In this document: positions 4,143 to 56,051 of the stretch, piece by piece
Position numbering within the stretch: the first letter of the stretch is position 1
Layout of the letters: the number at the start of each line of letters is the position of its first letter
NCBI GenBank assembly: GCA_036704125.1
Contig: DATNQI010000004.1
Location: forward strand, 1-64,000
From: Pantanalinema sp.
GTDB lineage: Bacteria > Cyanobacteriota > Sericytochromatia > S15B-MN24 > UBA4093
Reading direction: 5' to 3'
Length of the DNA: 64,000 nucleotides
Made by a program: the position numbers and the translations under genes
Notes under the pieces: model-generated
Databases searched by the model: none
What the model was told of the DNA's origin: nothing
Seen by the model: the letters and a program-made list of their open reading frames with translations, nothing else

Positions 4143-6533
4143 ATGACCCCGGAACACCTCGGCAAGACCACCCTGCTCATCGCCGGCCCTCGCGCCGGCA
4201 AGACCGCCCAGCTCTTGGAGTGGCGCGAATCGTGTCGCTTGCCGACCATTTACTTTCGCCTGACGCCGGAGGATGCCGAGCCGGCCTTCGCCCTGCGGCG
4301 CATGCTCAGGGACTGGCCCAGCATCCGGACCCACTTCGAGGCGCTCCGCGCGGAGCTTCCCTCCCTCCCCTGGGGGGCCGTGCTCGCCATGGCCATCGAC
4401 GAGGTCCTCCCCGATCTGTGCCTCTTGCTCGACGACTTCCACCTCAGCGAGGAGACGCCGGAGGCCGCCAGCTGGCTTGCGCTCGTTCGCCACTTCCCCC
4501 CCACGGGCACCCTCGCCGTCGCTTCCCGCCACCGGCTGCCCGAGCTCGAGCGCACGCCGCTGATCGTGTGGGACGCCGACCACCCGGCCTTCTCGGAGGC
4601 CCCGACCCGCGAGGACCTCGAGGGCTTGCCCCGATCGCTGCTCGCCAAGGCCGTCGTCATGCACGTCGTGGGCGAGGCCTCCCCCTCCTGCGAGGGGGCG
4701 GAGCTTGTCCGCCGCAACATCGCTCTCCAGATGCCCGTCGGGACTCACCGCCTGCGAGCGGCATGGCAAGCGATCGCGGGGGTCGCGGCTTCACCCGCCA
4801 TCCCTGCGATCTGGGGCGAGGTCGAGGCCGAGCTGCGGGGCTTCGTTCGGCGTCACCTGCGCAAGGGCAAGGAGCTTTCGATCCCGGGCATCCTGGAGCG
4901 GATCCCGAGCGAGGTCCGGGCCCGCAGCCCCTTCCTGCTCGAGGTGGAAGGGGAGATCCACCTCGAGGCCCGACGCTTTCTCGAAGCCCGCGAGTGCTTC
5001 CGAAGGGCGATGGACCTCGCGCCCGACCCCCTGTCCCGGCGCGACCTCCTGATCCACCTGCTCGCGGCCGCCGTCTACCTCTCGGACGACGCCCAAGCCG
5101 CCGCGATCCTGGAGAGGCTCGTTCCCGAGGAAGGGAGCGATCCCCCTTACATGGAGGCCCACCTGCTTTACTGGCGCGGGAGGATGGCGCTGGACGCCGG
5201 GCGCGTCGACGAAGCGCTGGCGACCTTCCAGCGGGTCCTGAACGTCCCGGCTTCCGGCGATCAAAGGGTCACGCGCAGCCACGCGCGTGCCCTGATCTAC
5301 CTGGTCAGCATCAACCACAACCTGGGGCACGTCGCGGACGCCACCTCGTTCGCGGAGCGGCTGGTCAACATGTGCCTGGCCTTCGACCTGCACCGCGATC
5401 TCTTGAGCGCCTTCTCCCTGCGCTGGCGCTGCCTGGTGCTGGGCGACTCCCGGCCCGCCTCGCTCGCCAAGCTCGTGGACATCCCCGAGGAAGCTTTCCT
5501 CGCCCCGAACCCCACCGCCCTCAACCTCTACCTCACCTGCTTCGCGGTGCGCGCCGACGCGATCGCGGCGTACGACCTCGCGCTGCGCCTCTTTCCGTTC
5601 GTCCTGGCGCACGCCGTCTCACAGCAGCTGACCATGCGCGTGCCGATCCTGAAGTACTGGCTCAGCCTCACCAAGATCAGAAGGGCCTCCGACGAGATCG
5701 ACCCGGCCCTCCTGCGCGCCATGTCGGCCGACGAGCAGTACGCGACCCTCACGCCCCTGAACTGGGCCAGTCTCTTCGTCCTGAGCGGTCAGCTCGACGA
5801 GGCGGAGGCCGCCATCCTGGCGCACGACGCCTGGAGCAGCGCAGAGGAGCGTGTGCGCGCCCGGCTCTACCTCGGCTGGATCCGCCACCGGCGCGGCGAT
5901 TCCGGGGCTGCCGACGAGGTCCGGGCGCTCTTGGCGACGCCCGAAGGCACCGGCATGTGGGAGATCGAGGTCGAGATCCTCGCGGAGCTCGGGCTGCGCG
6001 AAGCCCCCGCGCTCTTCCAGATGCGCGCGTTCGGCGAAACCGCCTTCGCGAGGGCGAAGCTCGCCTTGCCCCACTGGCCCCGAAAGAAGGCGCTGTCGCT
6101 CCTCGCGATCCTGGCCCTGCACCCGCAGGGGATCGAGGCCGAGGCCCTGCGCGATGCGCTGTACCGCGACTCGGACAACTCCGACCCGGCGGGCGCCCTG
6201 CGCAACCTGGTCTACGGCCTTCGCCAGGTGCTGACCCCGCTCGGCGCCGCCGACCTCCTCGAGGTGGCCCGGGGGGTCTACCGGTTCAAGTGGGAGCAGG
6301 TGGCGCACTGCGACCTTCACGAGTTCGACACCCTCTACCGCAAGGGGCAGGACCTCGAAACGGCCGGGCGACTCGAGGCCGCCGCCCTCTTCTACCGCAT
6401 GGCGGTCCTCACGGCCGACGGAGCCCTGTTCGCCGATCTCGGCGAGGACGTCTTCGAAGGCCCGCGCCGGGAGTACGCCGCGCGCCTCGAGCACGCCCAG
6501 GCCGTGGTCCGGGCTTCGGGGGCGCCCTGGTAG
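4143..6533 (+). CDS. ATPase-TPR-winged helix/BTAD transcriptional regulator (MalT/SARP-like)
   Basis: 796 residues. The N-terminal 200 residues resemble a STAND-type NTPase: a P-loop-like GPRAGKT at 15-21 (one residue short of the classical spacing) and a Walker B-like CLLLDDFH near residue 95. The middle (about 215-600) is helical with TPR-like repeats (EARECFRRAMDLAPDP, DEALATFQRVLNVP). The last 170 residues look like the winged-helix plus bacterial transcriptional activation domain of SARP/AfsR proteins (KKALSLLAILALHP, RNLVYGLRQVL, DLHEFDTLYRKGQDLE, LEAAALFYRMAVL). In AfsR the DNA-binding part is N-terminal; here it is C-terminal, as in MalT. It is likely to sense a ligand through the TPR region. 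The divergent lipoprotein operon is the obvious target. Confidence 0.75.
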   Translation: MTPEHLGKTTLLIAGPRAGKTAQLLEWRESCRLPTIYFRLTPEDAEPAFALRRMLRDWPSIRTHFEALRAELPSLPWGAVLAMAIDEVLPDLCLLLDDFHLSEETPEAASWLALVRHFPPTGTLAVASRHRLPELERTPLIVWDADHPAFSEAPTREDLEGLPRSLLAKAVVMHVVGEASPSCEGAELVRRNIALQMPVGTHRLRAAWQAIAGVAASPAIPAIWGEVEAELRGFVRRHLRKGKELSIPGILERIPSEVRARSPFLLEVEGEIHLEARRFLEARECFRRAMDLAPDPLSRRDLLIHLLAAAVYLSDDAQAAAILERLVPEEGSDPPYMEAHLLYWRGRMALDAGRVDEALATFQRVLNVPASGDQRVTRSHARALIYLVSINHNLGHVADATSFAERLVNMCLAFDLHRDLLSAFSLRWRCLVLGDSRPASLAKLVDIPEEAFLAPNPTALNLYLTCFAVRADAIAAYDLALRLFPFVLAHAVSQQLTMRVPILKYWLSLTKIRRASDEIDPALLRAMSADEQYATLTPLNWASLFVLSGQLDEAEAAILAHDAWSSAEERVRARLYLGWIRHRRGDSGAADEVRALLATPEGTGMWEIEVEILAELGLREAPALFQMRAFGETAFARAKLALPHWPRKKALSLLAILALHPQGIEAEALRDALYRDSDNSDPAGALRNLVYGLRQVLTPLGAADLLEVARGVYRFKWEQVAHCDLHEFDTLYRKGQDLETAGRLEAAALFYRMAVLTADGALFADLGEDVFEGPRREYAARLEHAQAVVRASGAPW

Positions 6534-6540
6534 AGGGGGC

Positions 6541-7767
6541 TCAGCCCGCCAGGTAGTCCAGGACGCTCTGCACGATCACCTTGACCCCGATCGGCAGGGC
6601 GTCCTCGTCGATGTCGAAGCTGGGATGGTGGTGGGGCTTGTCGAAGCCCTTGGCGGCGTTGAAGGAGCCGATGAGGAAGTAGCAGCCCGGCACCTTCTGC
6701 AGGAAGAAGGCCATGTCCTCGGAGCCCATGGTCCGCTCGGCCTCGACCACCCGCTCGACCCCGACGGCATGCTCGGCGGCCCTGCGCACCAGCCGGGTCA
6801 TCTCCCGGTCGTTGACCGTCACCGGGTACTGGTGCTTGTACCTGAGCTCGCAGCGCGCCCCGAAGGCCGAGGCCACCCCCTGGGCGAGGGCCTCGATCCG
6901 GCGGGGCATCTCGGCGCGCAGCCGCTCGTCGAAGGTGCGCACGGTCCCGCGCATCACCGCATCCTGCGCGATGATGTTGTGGCCCGAGCCCGCGGCGATC
7001 TGGCCCACGGTCAAGACCGCCGACTCGAGCGGCGAGACCATGCGGCTCACGACGGTCTGCAGGGCCGTGACGATGTGGGCGGCGACCACCACCGCGTCCA
7101 CCGAAAGGTGAGGATCGGCCCCGTGCCCCCCCTGGCCGCGGACGTGCAGCTCGAACTCGTCGGCCGAGGCCATCAGGGCCCCCTCGCGAATCCCGAGCGT
7201 GCCCACCGGCAGCTCGTTCCAGATGTGGAAGCCGAGGGCCGCGTCCACGCGGGGGCCCTCGAGCACCCCCTCCTCGATCATCAGGTCGGCGCCGCCGGGC
7301 CCCTCCTCGGCGGGCTGGAACACGAACTTGACGTTGCCGCACAGCCTGTCGCGGTGCGCGACCAGGAAGCGGATCGCGCCCAGCAGCATGGCCATGTGGG
7401 CGTCGTGGCCGCAGGCGTGCATCACCCCGGGGTTGCGCGAGACGTAGGAGTGGGGCGCCTCCTCGTGCAGGGGCAGGGCGTCGATGTCCGCCCGCACCAG
7501 CACCGTCTTGCCCGCTCGCGCACCCCGCAAGAGGGCCACCAGGCCGGTCTTGGCGATGCCGGTCTGGACCTCGAGGCCGAGGCCGTGGAGGGCCTGGGCG
7601 ATCCGGGCCGCGGTGTGGACCTCCTGGAAGCTCAGCTCGGGCCAGCGATGGAAGTCGCGCCGGGTCTCGACCAGCTCCGCGGTCATGGCGTCCACCGCGG
7701 CGTCGAGCTTCGAGAGCAGGGCGAGGCGATCGGCGGCGCAGGGATCCAGGAGCGGGGTCGTGTCCAT
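6541..7767 (-). CDS. M20 family amidohydrolase (N-acyl amino acid / IAA-amino acid hydrolase type)
   Basis: 408 residues, the usual size of M20D peptidases, which hydrolyse N-acyl or amide bonds with two metal ions. Metal-binding segments visible are HACGHDAHMAMLLG, with RADIDALP before it and PAEEGPGGADLMIEEG after it (the Glu-Glu pair is catalytic in the family). AGSGHNIIAQDA and GSEDMAFFLQ match conserved blocks of this subfamily. The chosen ATG (7767) is preceded by GGAG at seven bases; the frame extends upstream 20 codons without a better site. No signal peptide, so cytoplasmic. It is convergent with the regulator gene, seven bases apart. The substrate cannot be fixed from sequence; N-acetyl amino acid deacylation is likely. 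Confidence 0.9.
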   Translation of the reverse strand: MDTTPLLDPCAADRLALLSKLDAAVDAMTAELVETRRDFHRWPELSFQEVHTAARIAQALHGLGLEVQTGIAKTGLVALLRGARAGKTVLVRADIDALPLHEEAPHSYVSRNPGVMHACGHDAHMAMLLGAIRFLVAHRDRLCGNVKFVFQPAEEGPGGADLMIEEGVLEGPRVDAALGFHIWNELPVGTLGIREGALMASADEFELHVRGQGGHGADPHLSVDAVVVAAHIVTALQTVVSRMVSPLESAVLTVGQIAAGSGHNIIAQDAVMRGTVRTFDERLRAEMPRRIEALAQGVASAFGARCELRYKHQYPVTVNDREMTRLVRRAAEHAVGVERVVEAERTMGSEDMAFFLQKVPGCYFLIGSFNAAKGFDKPHHHPSFDIDEDALPIGVKVIVQSVLDYLAG

Positions 7768-7939
7768 TCGGTTCTCCGGCGATAGAGAGGGGTAAAGCGG
7801 CACGGGGGCCGCCTTCCATCTTATCAAAGGGACGAAGAGCGCGCAGCCCCGCGCCCTGGAGGCGCCGAGGCCGTAACGCCCGTTTAGCCCCCCAGGAGGC
7901 AGGGTACTGGAAGATCACACAGGCACGAGGAGCGCACGG

Positions 7940-52669: not shown

Positions 52670-54196
52670 TTACGCGATGGGCTCGCGGACGCCGTCCTCC
52701 TCATGGAGGACCCAGTCGCGCGAGCGCGAAACGGCGCGCTTCCAGGCCGCGCGCAAAGGAGCGCGCGACGCTTCGGCCATGGCGCTCTCGAAGGTCATGA
52801 GGCCCGCAGGCGCCGGGATGGCCTCCGGGCTTTGCCAGAAGCCGACGCCAAGGCCCGCGAGCATCGCCGCCCCCCAGGCCGTGCTCTCGACGACGGCCGC
52901 CCGGCGAACGGGCAGGCCCAGCACGTCCGCCTGGAACTGCATCAGGAAGTCGTTGGCGCTGGCCCCCCCGTCCACCCGCAGCTCGCGGATGGCGCGGCCC
53001 GTGTCCGCCTGCATCCCCTCGATGAGATCGGCGCTCTGGAAGGCGATGGACTCGAGGGCCGAGCGCACCAGGTGCGCCCGGGTGGTGCCGCGGGTGATCC
53101 CCACGATGGTGCCGCGCGCGTACGGGTCCCAGTGGGGAGCACCCAGGCCGACGAACGCCGGCACCAGGTAGACCCCGCCCGTGTCCGGCACCGAGCGCGC
53201 CAGGGCCTCGGTCTGCGAGGCGCTCGAGATGAGGCCCAGCCCGTCGCGCAGCCACTGGATGGTGGCTCCTGCCGAGAAGACGCTGCCCTCCAGGGCGTAG
53301 ACCGTCTTGCCGCCGATCTGCCAGGCGATGGTCGTCAGGAGGCGATTGCGGCTGAAGATGGGGCGATCGCCCGTGTTGACCAGCAGGAAGCAGCCGGTGC
53401 CATAGGTGTTCTTGCCCATCCCCTCCTCCCAGCAGCGCTGCCCGAAGAGGGCCGCCTGCTGGTCGCCCGCCATCCCCGAAACGGGGATTCCGGCTCCCAG
53501 GCGGCCGTGGGCCACGGTGCGGGCGAACTCGCCGCTGTTGGGCAGGACCTCGGGCAGCATGGCCCGGGGGATGACGAGGCGCTCCAGGATCTCGGGATCC
53601 CAGTCGAGGGTCGAGAGGTTGAAGAGCATGGTGCGGCTGGCGTTGGAGAAGTCCGTCGCGTGGCGCGCGCCGCCCGAGAGGCGCCAGAGCAGGTAGGAGT
53701 CGATGGTCCCGAAGAGGACCTCGCCGCGCTCGGCGCGTTCGCGCAGCCCCGGCATCCGGTCGAGCAGCCAAGCAAGCTTGGTGCCCGAGAAGTAGGCGTC
53801 CAGCACCAGGCCGGTCTTGGAGGCGAAGAAGTCGACCAGCCCCTCCTGGCGCAGGGCGTCGCACATTCCCGCGGTGCGGCGGCACTGCCAGACGATCGCC
53901 CGGTGCACCGGCTCGCCCGTTTCGCGGTCCCAGACCACCACCGTCTCGCGCTGGTTGGTGATGCCGATGCCGGCGATCGCATCGCTCGTGGCGCCCGCGG
54001 CCTGGAGGCAGGTGTCGATGGCCTCCTGCACCCCCCGCCAGATCTCGGAGGCGTCGTGCTCGACCCAGCCGGGCTGGGGGTAGTGCTGGGTCACCTCGCG
54101 ATAGGCGCGGCCCGCCACGCGGCCGTCGCGGTCGAAGAGCAGGACGGTGGAGCCGGTGGTGCCTTGATCGATGGCCAGGACGTAGCGCGCGGTCAT
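52670..54196 (-). CDS. glpK: Glycerol kinase
   Basis: 508 residues. It phosphorylates glycerol to glycerol-3-phosphate, the GlpD substrate. FGGY-type kinase motifs: [20 protein letters not shown] (ATP), [36 protein letters not shown] and YFVPAF-like [21 protein letters not shown]. The second FGGY signature ([15 protein letters not shown]-like [14 protein letters not shown]) is near residue 400. No glycerol facilitator gene adjoins. GGAGG precedes the ATG. Confidence 0.97.
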
Positions 54197-54278: not shown

Positions 54279-54309
54279 TTGGCCCTAATTTCCGCATCCT
54301 TGTTATAAT
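54279..54309 (+). promoter_or_regulatory. Promoter of the cyanophycinase-like gene
   Basis: A perfect TATAAT at 54304-54309 with TTGGCC at 54279-54284, 19 bases apart (long spacing). The -35 overlaps a GGGCCA-GCT-TGGCCC dyad (54271-54285) that could be an operator. Confidence 0.5.
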
Positions 54310-54341
54310 CGAGCCATCGGGACAGCCACAAAGGAGACGGT

Positions 54342-56051
54342 TTGAGCACATCCGGGTTTCAACCGAGGGGGCCTCGCGCGGGCCGCGCCTGCGCGCTCGT
54401 CGCGCTGGCGTCTCTTTCGCTCACGGCCGTCGCGCCGGCTGCCGCGCAGGTCAAGAGCGGCGTGTTCGTCGCCATCGGCGGCGGCCCCGAGCGCGCCGAG
54501 ATCGTCTCGACCGTGCTGCAGCTCGCGGGCGGCAAGGACAAGCACGTGGTGGTGATGCCCACCGCCTCGGGCGCCCCTTCCGAGAGCGGGCTCGCCTACA
54601 AGCAATACTTCCTGGGGGCGGGGGTGCAGGACGTGGACAGCCTGCCCATCCCCGACCGGGACGGCGCCAACGAGCTGGAGCCGGTCAAGGTCATCGGCCG
54701 GGCCGATCTGCTCTACTTCACCGGCGGCGACCAGAACCGCCTGGTCAACACCCTCACCAACACCGCGGTCCACGGCTCCATCCAGACCGCCTGGCAGCGC
54801 GCCGCGCTCATCGCGGGCACCAGCGCGGGCGCCATGGTCTGGGGCCCCGAGTTCATCGCCAACGGCAGCAGCCGCGGCGCGCTGCTCAACGGCTTCAGCC
54901 GCGACAGCCAGGGGATGCCCGGCCTGGAGCTGCGCCCCGGGCTCAACCTGTGGGACAACCTGATCGTCGACACCCACTTCACCGAGCAGCAGCGCCTCGG
55001 GCGCCTGGTGCTCGCGATCGCGAGCAACCAGGGTTACACCGGCCTCGGCATCGACGAGGGGACGGCTGCGATCGTCACCAACGACACCATCCAGGCGATC
55101 GGGACAGGCGCGGTCACCGTCCTCGAGACCGACAAGGTGAGCGCGAGCAACGCCGAGACGGTGGGCCCCGGCAACCCGCTGGCCATCGGCAGGGTCTCGT
55201 ACCACCGCCTGATCCCAGGCAAGACCTACCTGCGCAAGTGGAAGACGATCCAGGAAGAGGAACCGCTCGCTCAAGCCCAGGGGCAGCCCCCGCGCACGCC
55301 CTACATCGCGCTGGCGGGCAGCGACACCCCCCCCAAGCAATCGCCGCCCATCTCGGACTTCGTGCGCGCCAGCGGCGGAAGCCAGGCCCGCATCCTGCTC
55401 CTCACCGGCGAGGGCGCCACCCAGGGCGCGCGCATGTGGAAGACCCACCTGATGCGCCTGGGCGCGGCCCAGGTGGTCAACTACCAGTCCATCGAGCTCT
55501 CGGAGCAGGGCCTCGCCCTGGCCCTCCAGCAGGCCACGGGCATCTTCATGCTCGAGGACGGCCGCGCGAGCCTCTTGAAGGCCCTGCTCGCCAACCAGGG
55601 GCGTCTCGCCCAGGTCGTGATCGACGCGGGCAACCGCATGCCCATGGGGGCCGCGGGCAACGGCGTGCGCCTCTTCGGCACCCATGCGATCTTCGGGGCG
55701 CCCGGCTCCAACGACTACCTCTCGCTGCCGGGGCTCGGCATCCTGCCGTCCGCCGTGGTGGACAAGGCGTTCTGGACCACGGACGCGGTCGAGCGACTCG
55801 TGCGCTCGTCGATCCGGGGCAGCCGCTCGCTGGCCGTCGGCCTCTCGCCCGACAACGCCCTCACCATATCGGGCGGCCAGGCCACCGTCTTCGGCACCAG
55901 CCAGGTCATGTTCCTCGAAGCCAAGGACGCCACGGGCTTCAAGCTCGCCCCCGAGGATTCGCCGGGCCCCTCCGGCATCACGGGAATGTCGCTCTCGGTG
56001 GTGCCGGCCAACGGCTCGTACGACCTCATCCGGCGCGAGGCGCGATTCTAA
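54342..56051 (+). CDS. Secreted two-domain cyanophycinase-like (S51) protein
   Basis: 569 residues from TTG with AAGGAG five bases upstream. A signal peptide (RACALVALASLSLTAVAPAAAQ) makes it extracytoplasmic. Domain 1 (about 38-290) is a peptidase S51/cyanophycinase: VAIGGG, FTGGDQNRL, nucleophile Ser161 in GTSAGAMVW, DTHF, and GIDEGTAAIV. Domain 2 (about 320-470) repeats the same order (YIALAGS, ILLLTGEGA, IFMLEDGRASLL, VVIDAGNRMPMG), but the segment equivalent to the Ser has no Ser-x-Gly, so it looks catalytically dead. Cyanophycinase splits the Asp-Arg polymer cyanophycin; a broader exopeptidase role is possible. Confidence 0.85.
   Translation: MSTSGFQPRGPRAGRACALVALASLSLTAVAPAAAQVKSGVFVAIGGGPERAEIVSTVLQLAGGKDKHVVVMPTASGAPSESGLAYKQYFLGAGVQDVDSLPIPDRDGANELEPVKVIGRADLLYFTGGDQNRLVNTLTNTAVHGSIQTAWQRAALIAGTSAGAMVWGPEFIANGSSRGALLNGFSRDSQGMPGLELRPGLNLWDNLIVDTHFTEQQRLGRLVLAIASNQGYTGLGIDEGTAAIVTNDTIQAIGTGAVTVLETDKVSASNAETVGPGNPLAIGRVSYHRLIPGKTYLRKWKTIQEEEPLAQAQGQPPRTPYIALAGSDTPPKQSPPISDFVRASGGSQARILLLTGEGATQGARMWKTHLMRLGAAQVVNYQSIELSEQGLALALQQATGIFMLEDGRASLLKALLANQGRLAQVVIDAGNRMPMGAAGNGVRLFGTHAIFGAPGSNDYLSLPGLGILPSAVVDKAFWTTDAVERLVRSSIRGSRSLAVGLSPDNALTISGGQATVFGTSQVMFLEAKDATGFKLAPEDSPGPSGITGMSLSVVPANGSYDLIRREARF

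Follow-up and report, generated by a model that had tools for sequence, protein, structure and literature searches.

The gene at 54342..56051 of the window, i.e. the whole 64,000-nucleotide stretch of DNA analysed here, encodes a 569-residue protein in which two S51 peptidase domains follow one another in a single chain. The first (D1) has intact catalytic residues and the second (D2) is catalytically dead, an architecture that we hold with high confidence. The gene lies on the plus strand, as do all protein features given below; its frame is open throughout these coordinates, and orthologues are found in nine other genomes of the order. The presence of the tandem in 10 genomes rules out a frame or assembly artefact. 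The window itself comes from a 3.5-Mb genome of Candidatus Sericytochromatia (G000) that is 96 percent complete. The original prediction had the gene begin with TTG, and this is upheld, as the next in-frame start (GTG, 54462) falls within D1 and TTG 54342 is thus the only usable start. A putative ribosome-binding site, AAAGGAG (54330..54336, plus strand), is positioned 5 nt before the TTG, and a TATAAT is present at 54304-54309, between the divergent glycerol kinase gene and the tandem gene. A secretion signal had likewise been predicted, and hydropathy agrees with a Sec-type signal peptide over approximately residues 1-36 (54342..54449), with a charged start, a hydrophobic segment at 16-27, and APAAA preceding Q36. 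The call was made from the hydropathy pattern; the same Sec-like hydrophobic N-terminal pattern is recovered by the hydropathy script in 10/10 orthologues, and the tandem protein is predicted to be exported.

D1 (residues ~39-304; 54456..55253) on its own scores 187.7 bits against the cyanophycinase profile TIGR02069 (cut-off 126.6) and 82.3 bits against Peptidase_S51 PF03575 (cut-off 23.9), and its model superposes on intracellular CphB (7uqw, 3en0, 7uqv) with Z ~35 over 255-256 residues at 30-33 percent identity. The S51 fold is shared with the PepE dipeptidases (1fy2, 6a4r, 7c9b; Z ~20 with D1 and 11.5-11.9 with D2), and by sequence their likeness is weak (22.8 bits against NF003642, cut-off 156). 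The joint alignment equates Ser161, the nucleophile within GTSAGAM (54822..54824), with CphB Ser132, and Gln131 (54732..54734) with CphB Gln101. Ser161 sits in a GxSxG motif and the catalytic His212 is present, the features by which an S51 peptidase is recognized. The His block reads IVDTHFT and contains Asp210-Thr211-His212 (54969..54977), a DTH of the CphE type by comparison with PMC3235067. The site Ser, His, Gln and Asp of CphB are all found in the window D1, and its pocket residues Gln131, Asp210, Arg218 and Arg221 match Gln101, Asp172, Arg180 and Arg183 of CphB, which the same source gives as pocket residues. Across the tandem proteins 9/10 D1s retain the full catalytic set of Ser, His and Gln, at least 9/10 retain each of the four pocket residues, and Thr211 is Thr in 10/10; the conservation of the pocket columns in D1 is 0.660 as against 0.391 elsewhere in the domain.

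The second half, D2 (residues ~320-569; 55299..56048), is an S51 homologue by profile, profile-profile and fold comparison, as the original prediction of a tandem S51 protein had proposed. Searched alone, D2 matches TIGR02069 with 47.4 bits (E 1.6e-12) and the solved CphB sequences at E ~1e-8; Pfam PF03575 does not match it at E 1. The D1 and D2 profiles align with one another over 232 columns with a probability of 97.9 and E 3.6e-13. An HMM of 25 single-domain relatives detects all ten D2s at 16.9-56.9 bits (best of 2000 shuffles, 4.2), and a D1 HMM detects them at 15.0-26.0 bits (best of 2000 shuffles, 7.9); a chance repeat is ruled out by these shuffles. Three of four D2s taken from other genomes also match TIGR02069 in NCBIfam (32.3, 31.6 and 21.9 bits), and the fourth, from L007, gives no match at E 0.01. 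With respect to fold, modelling D2 by itself from only 4 rows gave a model of low confidence, with a pLDDT of 57; the best 11 PDB entries that it retrieves are all S51 (Z 10.7-14.6; next row 8.2), with CphB at Z 14.6 and an rmsd of 3.4 over 210 residues, and Foldseek agrees on the S51 fold, so that the unrelated fold that would have spoken against the repeat is not what is seen. A full-length AlphaFold2 model from 9 rows reaches a pLDDT of 82 with both domains mostly confident, whereas the D1-D2 orientation carries no confidence (pTM 0.52). The fold search with this model returned no S51 row for D2 because each entry yields one alignment, which D1 fills.

D2 has lost the Ser, His and Gln of the S51 active site. 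The original prediction of a second half lacking a nucleophile is correct, although not at the site that it had named. Of the four sequence blocks then paired between the halves, the initial two stand and block 3 holds to within one residue, whereas the fourth was misplaced: VVIDAGNRMPMG had been taken as the counterpart of GTSAGAM, and is rejected by both the profile-profile and the joint alignments, which give AAGNGVR (437-443; 55650..55670) instead. With this pairing the nucleophile is replaced by Gly439. The Gln is lost in LEDGRASL (404-411; 55551..55574), the counterpart of TGGDQNRL, and the His in VVDKAFW (472-478; 55755..55775), which the joint alignment pairs with IVDTHFT; the three replacements are therefore Gln131 to Arg408, Ser161 to Gly439, and His212 to Ala476. 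The columns of Asp210, Arg218 and Arg221 hold Asp474, Ala482 and Arg485. None of the 10 D2s in the joint alignment has a Ser in the nucleophile column, a His in the His column or a Gln in the Gln column; at the nucleophile all 10 have Gly. D2 has conserved residues of its own, i.e. Asp406 (10/10), Gly439 (10/10), Trp478 (9/10) and Arg443 (8/10). Proteins from families f1-f3 end in a conserved PRF-like tail (56031-56048 in the window; Arg second to last in 8/8, Phe or Tyr last in 7/8) that the f4 proteins do not have. Four f2 proteins (L006, L009, L010 and L011) have a longer D1-D2 linker with a short aromatic/hydrophobic segment, e.g. GGFFGWF, which is absent from the linker of the window protein.

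S51 matches occur in 132 of the 386 genomes of the phylum that were searched, and among the matches listed those extending past query residue 320 are confined to genomes of the window's order. The tandem is present in 10/10 examined genomes of this order and in 0/8 other genomes of the class (18 class genomes examined), one of which (G050) gives a weak single-domain match. In the tree the D1s form one clade (99/98) and the D2s another (100/100), most simply explained by a single origin. Purifying selection acts on both halves in L010/L011, the two closest sequences, with a dN/dS of 0.18-0.21 for D1 and 0.07-0.11 for D2; two more distant pairs give NG86 values of 0.33-0.44 with dS near 1. The tandem architecture, the catalytic loss in D2, the single origin, the conservation, and the selection in the closest pair are calculated from these comparisons. 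Beyond the phylum, the search for tandem S51 proteins covered plasmid and phage records, together with D2 scans of genome_contigs and viral_contigs. The phages gave no match and viral_contigs no D2 relative, and a phage origin is ruled out. Tandem S51 proteins are not unique to this order, as a plasmid of Cytobacillus spongiae encodes WP_233812150.1 (L093, 306-2372), in which two S51 units likewise share one chain. Unlike in the window D2, GTSAGA and DQHF occur in both of its halves, and a shared D2 lineage is not implied; the CDS as annotated lacks the N-terminal part of its first S51 unit. Among the plasmid records one place alone spans the greater part of the query; it lies in Kovacikia, and both halves there match a single 816-nt unit. 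A pair of one live and one dead S51 unit was absent from the plasmid and phage records searched, and a dead S51 repeat was not found in the published literature (titles and abstract openings; openly licensed texts).

Among the closest known enzymes is CphE, the extracellular cyanophycinase of Pseudomonas anguilliseptica and P. alcaligenes, with which the window protein has a Sec signal and the S51 type in common. Next to its catalytic His, CphE has a Thr where CphB has Gln173 (PMC3235067), and the window protein likewise has Thr211. The two differ in that the mature CphE of 43.6 kDa has no second S51 domain, and in that CphE retains Arg228, the equivalent of CphB Arg178, whereas the window protein has Gln216 (54987..54989) at this position. 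CphB, for its part, has Gln173 and Arg178 in a single domain and is a homodimer (PMC12661447), whereas the window protein carries a second domain. Arg178 of CphB (Arg228 of CphE) is listed as a critical pocket residue in PMC3235067. The residues found there in the 10 tandem D1s are Q,Q,K,R,D,D,K,E,E,E, i.e. Arg in 1/10, whereas the position is Arg in 25/25 single-domain proteins in the joint alignment and in 10/11 units from plasmid-borne relatives of other phyla. The sole exception among these 11 is a Lys in the second half of the Cytobacillus tandem, so that the Arg178 equivalent is kept in 35/36 compared relatives outside the tandem D1s. As the tandem D1s form one clade, the loss represents one or few events and not ten. 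Two f4 D1s have an Arg one residue earlier (HFGREGR), which may replace Arg178. Given the absence of the Arg178 equivalent we call D1 cyanophycinase-like and not a cyanophycinase, and with the position missing in 9/10 tandem D1s we treat the cyanophycin substrate assumed in the original prediction as putative. Cyanophycin or a cyanophycin-like substrate is a somewhat favoured candidate for what the enzyme would cut.

The reading that we prefer is that of a secreted S51 exopeptidase of the CphE branch (D1) fused to a dead S51 repeat (D2) that acts as its non-catalytic partner; taken as a whole, we put this statement forward tentatively, at slightly short of an even chance. D1 would be exported by Sec as a serine exopeptidase of the CphE/cyanophycinase branch, close to CphE, and its most likely activity is the extracytoplasmic cleavage of cyanophycin or of a related beta-aspartyl-linked peptide. 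Ser161 and His212 would carry out catalysis with Gln131 and Asp210 as pocket residues, and the dipeptides would be released for uptake. As CphB is homodimeric, a second copy that is conserved and of full length but dead would most simply serve to replace the second protomer. D2 would most likely stand in for that protomer, so that a single chain forms a pseudo-heterodimer with just one active site, a role that we regard as plausible but less than evenly probable. Such a protein would offer a clean case in which to study how duplication turns a homodimeric enzyme into a live and a dead half, retained in all genomes of the order that were examined.

The main rival to protomer replacement is a possible role of D2 as a substrate-binding module, in which the rebuilt former cleft would hold the polymer and keep D1 on it; the original prediction had raised polymer binding, or the setting of chain length, for a dead half. 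The old-pocket columns of D2 are more conserved than the rest of the domain (0.473 vs 0.367, P 0.012) and include the D2-specific Asp406, Gly439, Trp478 and Arg443; yet Gly, Ala or Leu account for much of this conservation, which may be structural, and the excess is far weaker than that of the D1 pocket. We consider a binding role rather unlikely. Its further support comes from UBA8530 (G013), where D1 reads GSGAGAV, SGNP and DTSF and has lost Ser, Gln and His alike, while D2 keeps its D2-type conserved residues, as a binding protein would. The UBA8530 protein is possibly non-catalytic, and its genome holds no other S51 match at E 1e-10. Another reading of this case is that the tandem protein is moving to a purely non-catalytic role, with D2 simply the half that died first; D1_L009 also forms a long branch. 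This last reading is very improbable, given that 9/10 D1s keep their catalytic residues and that selection acts on both halves in the closest pair. Moreover, the UBA8530 gene (L012 1423-3116 / L060 5012-6705) is interrupted by an NN in the assembly, with one half on either side of it and the two in different frames, and it could be decaying. The UBA8530 D1 still passes the TIGR02069 cut-off with 151.7 bits and is likely a misannotation as a cyanophycinase. The profile thus labels as cyanophycinases proteins that have no catalytic residues, as in this D1, or no Arg178, a misnaming that concerns a non-photosynthetic group related to cyanobacteria.

A different challenge concerns the substrate, namely that the secreted D1 is active as an S51 peptidase but that its specificity was changed by the loss of Arg178, e.g. 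towards other aspartyl or isoaspartyl peptides. The varied Arg178 position of the tandem D1s, set against the Arg of the single-domain and plasmid-borne units, speaks for this, as do the five tandem genomes with no cyanophycin synthetase gene (cphA) above cut-off and the occurrence within S51 of PepE, an aspartyl dipeptidase by its structure entry titles. The retention of Gln131, Asp210, Arg218 and Arg221, a TIGR02069 score for the window D1 far above the cut-off, and the displaced Arg of the f4 proteins argue against it, and we judge a non-cyanophycin substrate to be on the unlikely side. More far-reaching is the proposal of a new class of secreted S51 proteins, in which the pseudo-peptidase half would be an obligate subunit that takes over from the dimer partner and remodels the pocket of D1, leaving Arg178 free to vary, with a substrate other than plain cyanophycin and with the UBA8530 protein as a catalysis-free binding protein; the combination is improbable. 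Several observations speak against the preferred reading: Gln216 at the Arg178 position, a window genome with neither cphA nor IadA above cut-off and no PF01112 match, a gene located outside any cyanophycin cluster, the low confidence of the D1-D2 orientation, and the dead D1 of UBA8530.

cphA is found above cut-off in 5/10 genomes of the order (G038, G001, G016, G023 and G041) and not in the window genome; two of the five genomes with none above cut-off have a completeness of only 86 percent (G026) and 64 percent (G047). As the tandem occurs in five genomes with cphA above cut-off and five without, a link to cyanophycin synthesis was rejected. In G038, G001, G016 and G041 the cyanophycinase that adjoins cphA is a different, single-domain gene, from which the tandem gene is thus separate. 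The cyanophycin-scavenging clusters described in PMC10206079 differ from the window genome, which has no match to the isoaspartyl peptidase PF01112 (present in 8/13 examined genomes) and no IadA (TIGR01975) above cut-off, the latter being above cut-off in 0/13. A further S51 gene of the window genome, L002 (G000:C36:50236-50949, minus strand), encodes a single domain with a signal-like N-terminus of its own, GTSAGA, DTHF and Arg178; where CphE has its proposed Glu, this protein has Pro. By eye, the neighbours of this paralogue (L077) form no recognizable cyanophycin locus; the one neighbour scanned with Pfam is a TPR protein.

The divergent neighbour of the tandem gene in the window is the glycerol kinase gene glpK (52670..54196, minus strand; Pfam FGGY_N and FGGY_C), ~145 bp away and given here as context; nothing apparent ties glycerol use functionally to the peptidase. 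glpK is also divergent upstream in 5/9 other tandem loci (G038, G026, G007, G016 and G001), and was not found at G041, G023 and G013, nor in the 2 kb upstream present at G047. In the two genomes of family f4 an SBP_bac_5 solute-binding lipoprotein gene stands immediately before the tandem gene or overlaps with it, according to which start codon is taken (L072, 4579-6171, with the tandem gene at ~6150-7808; L073, 11151-9481, with the tandem as the next gene). A family-5, peptide-type, solute-binding neighbour fits with peptide uptake; in the window genome the nearest homologue of this gene is on another contig. The L072 pair is itself located downstream of a Clp_N protein and an apparent kinase and response regulator.
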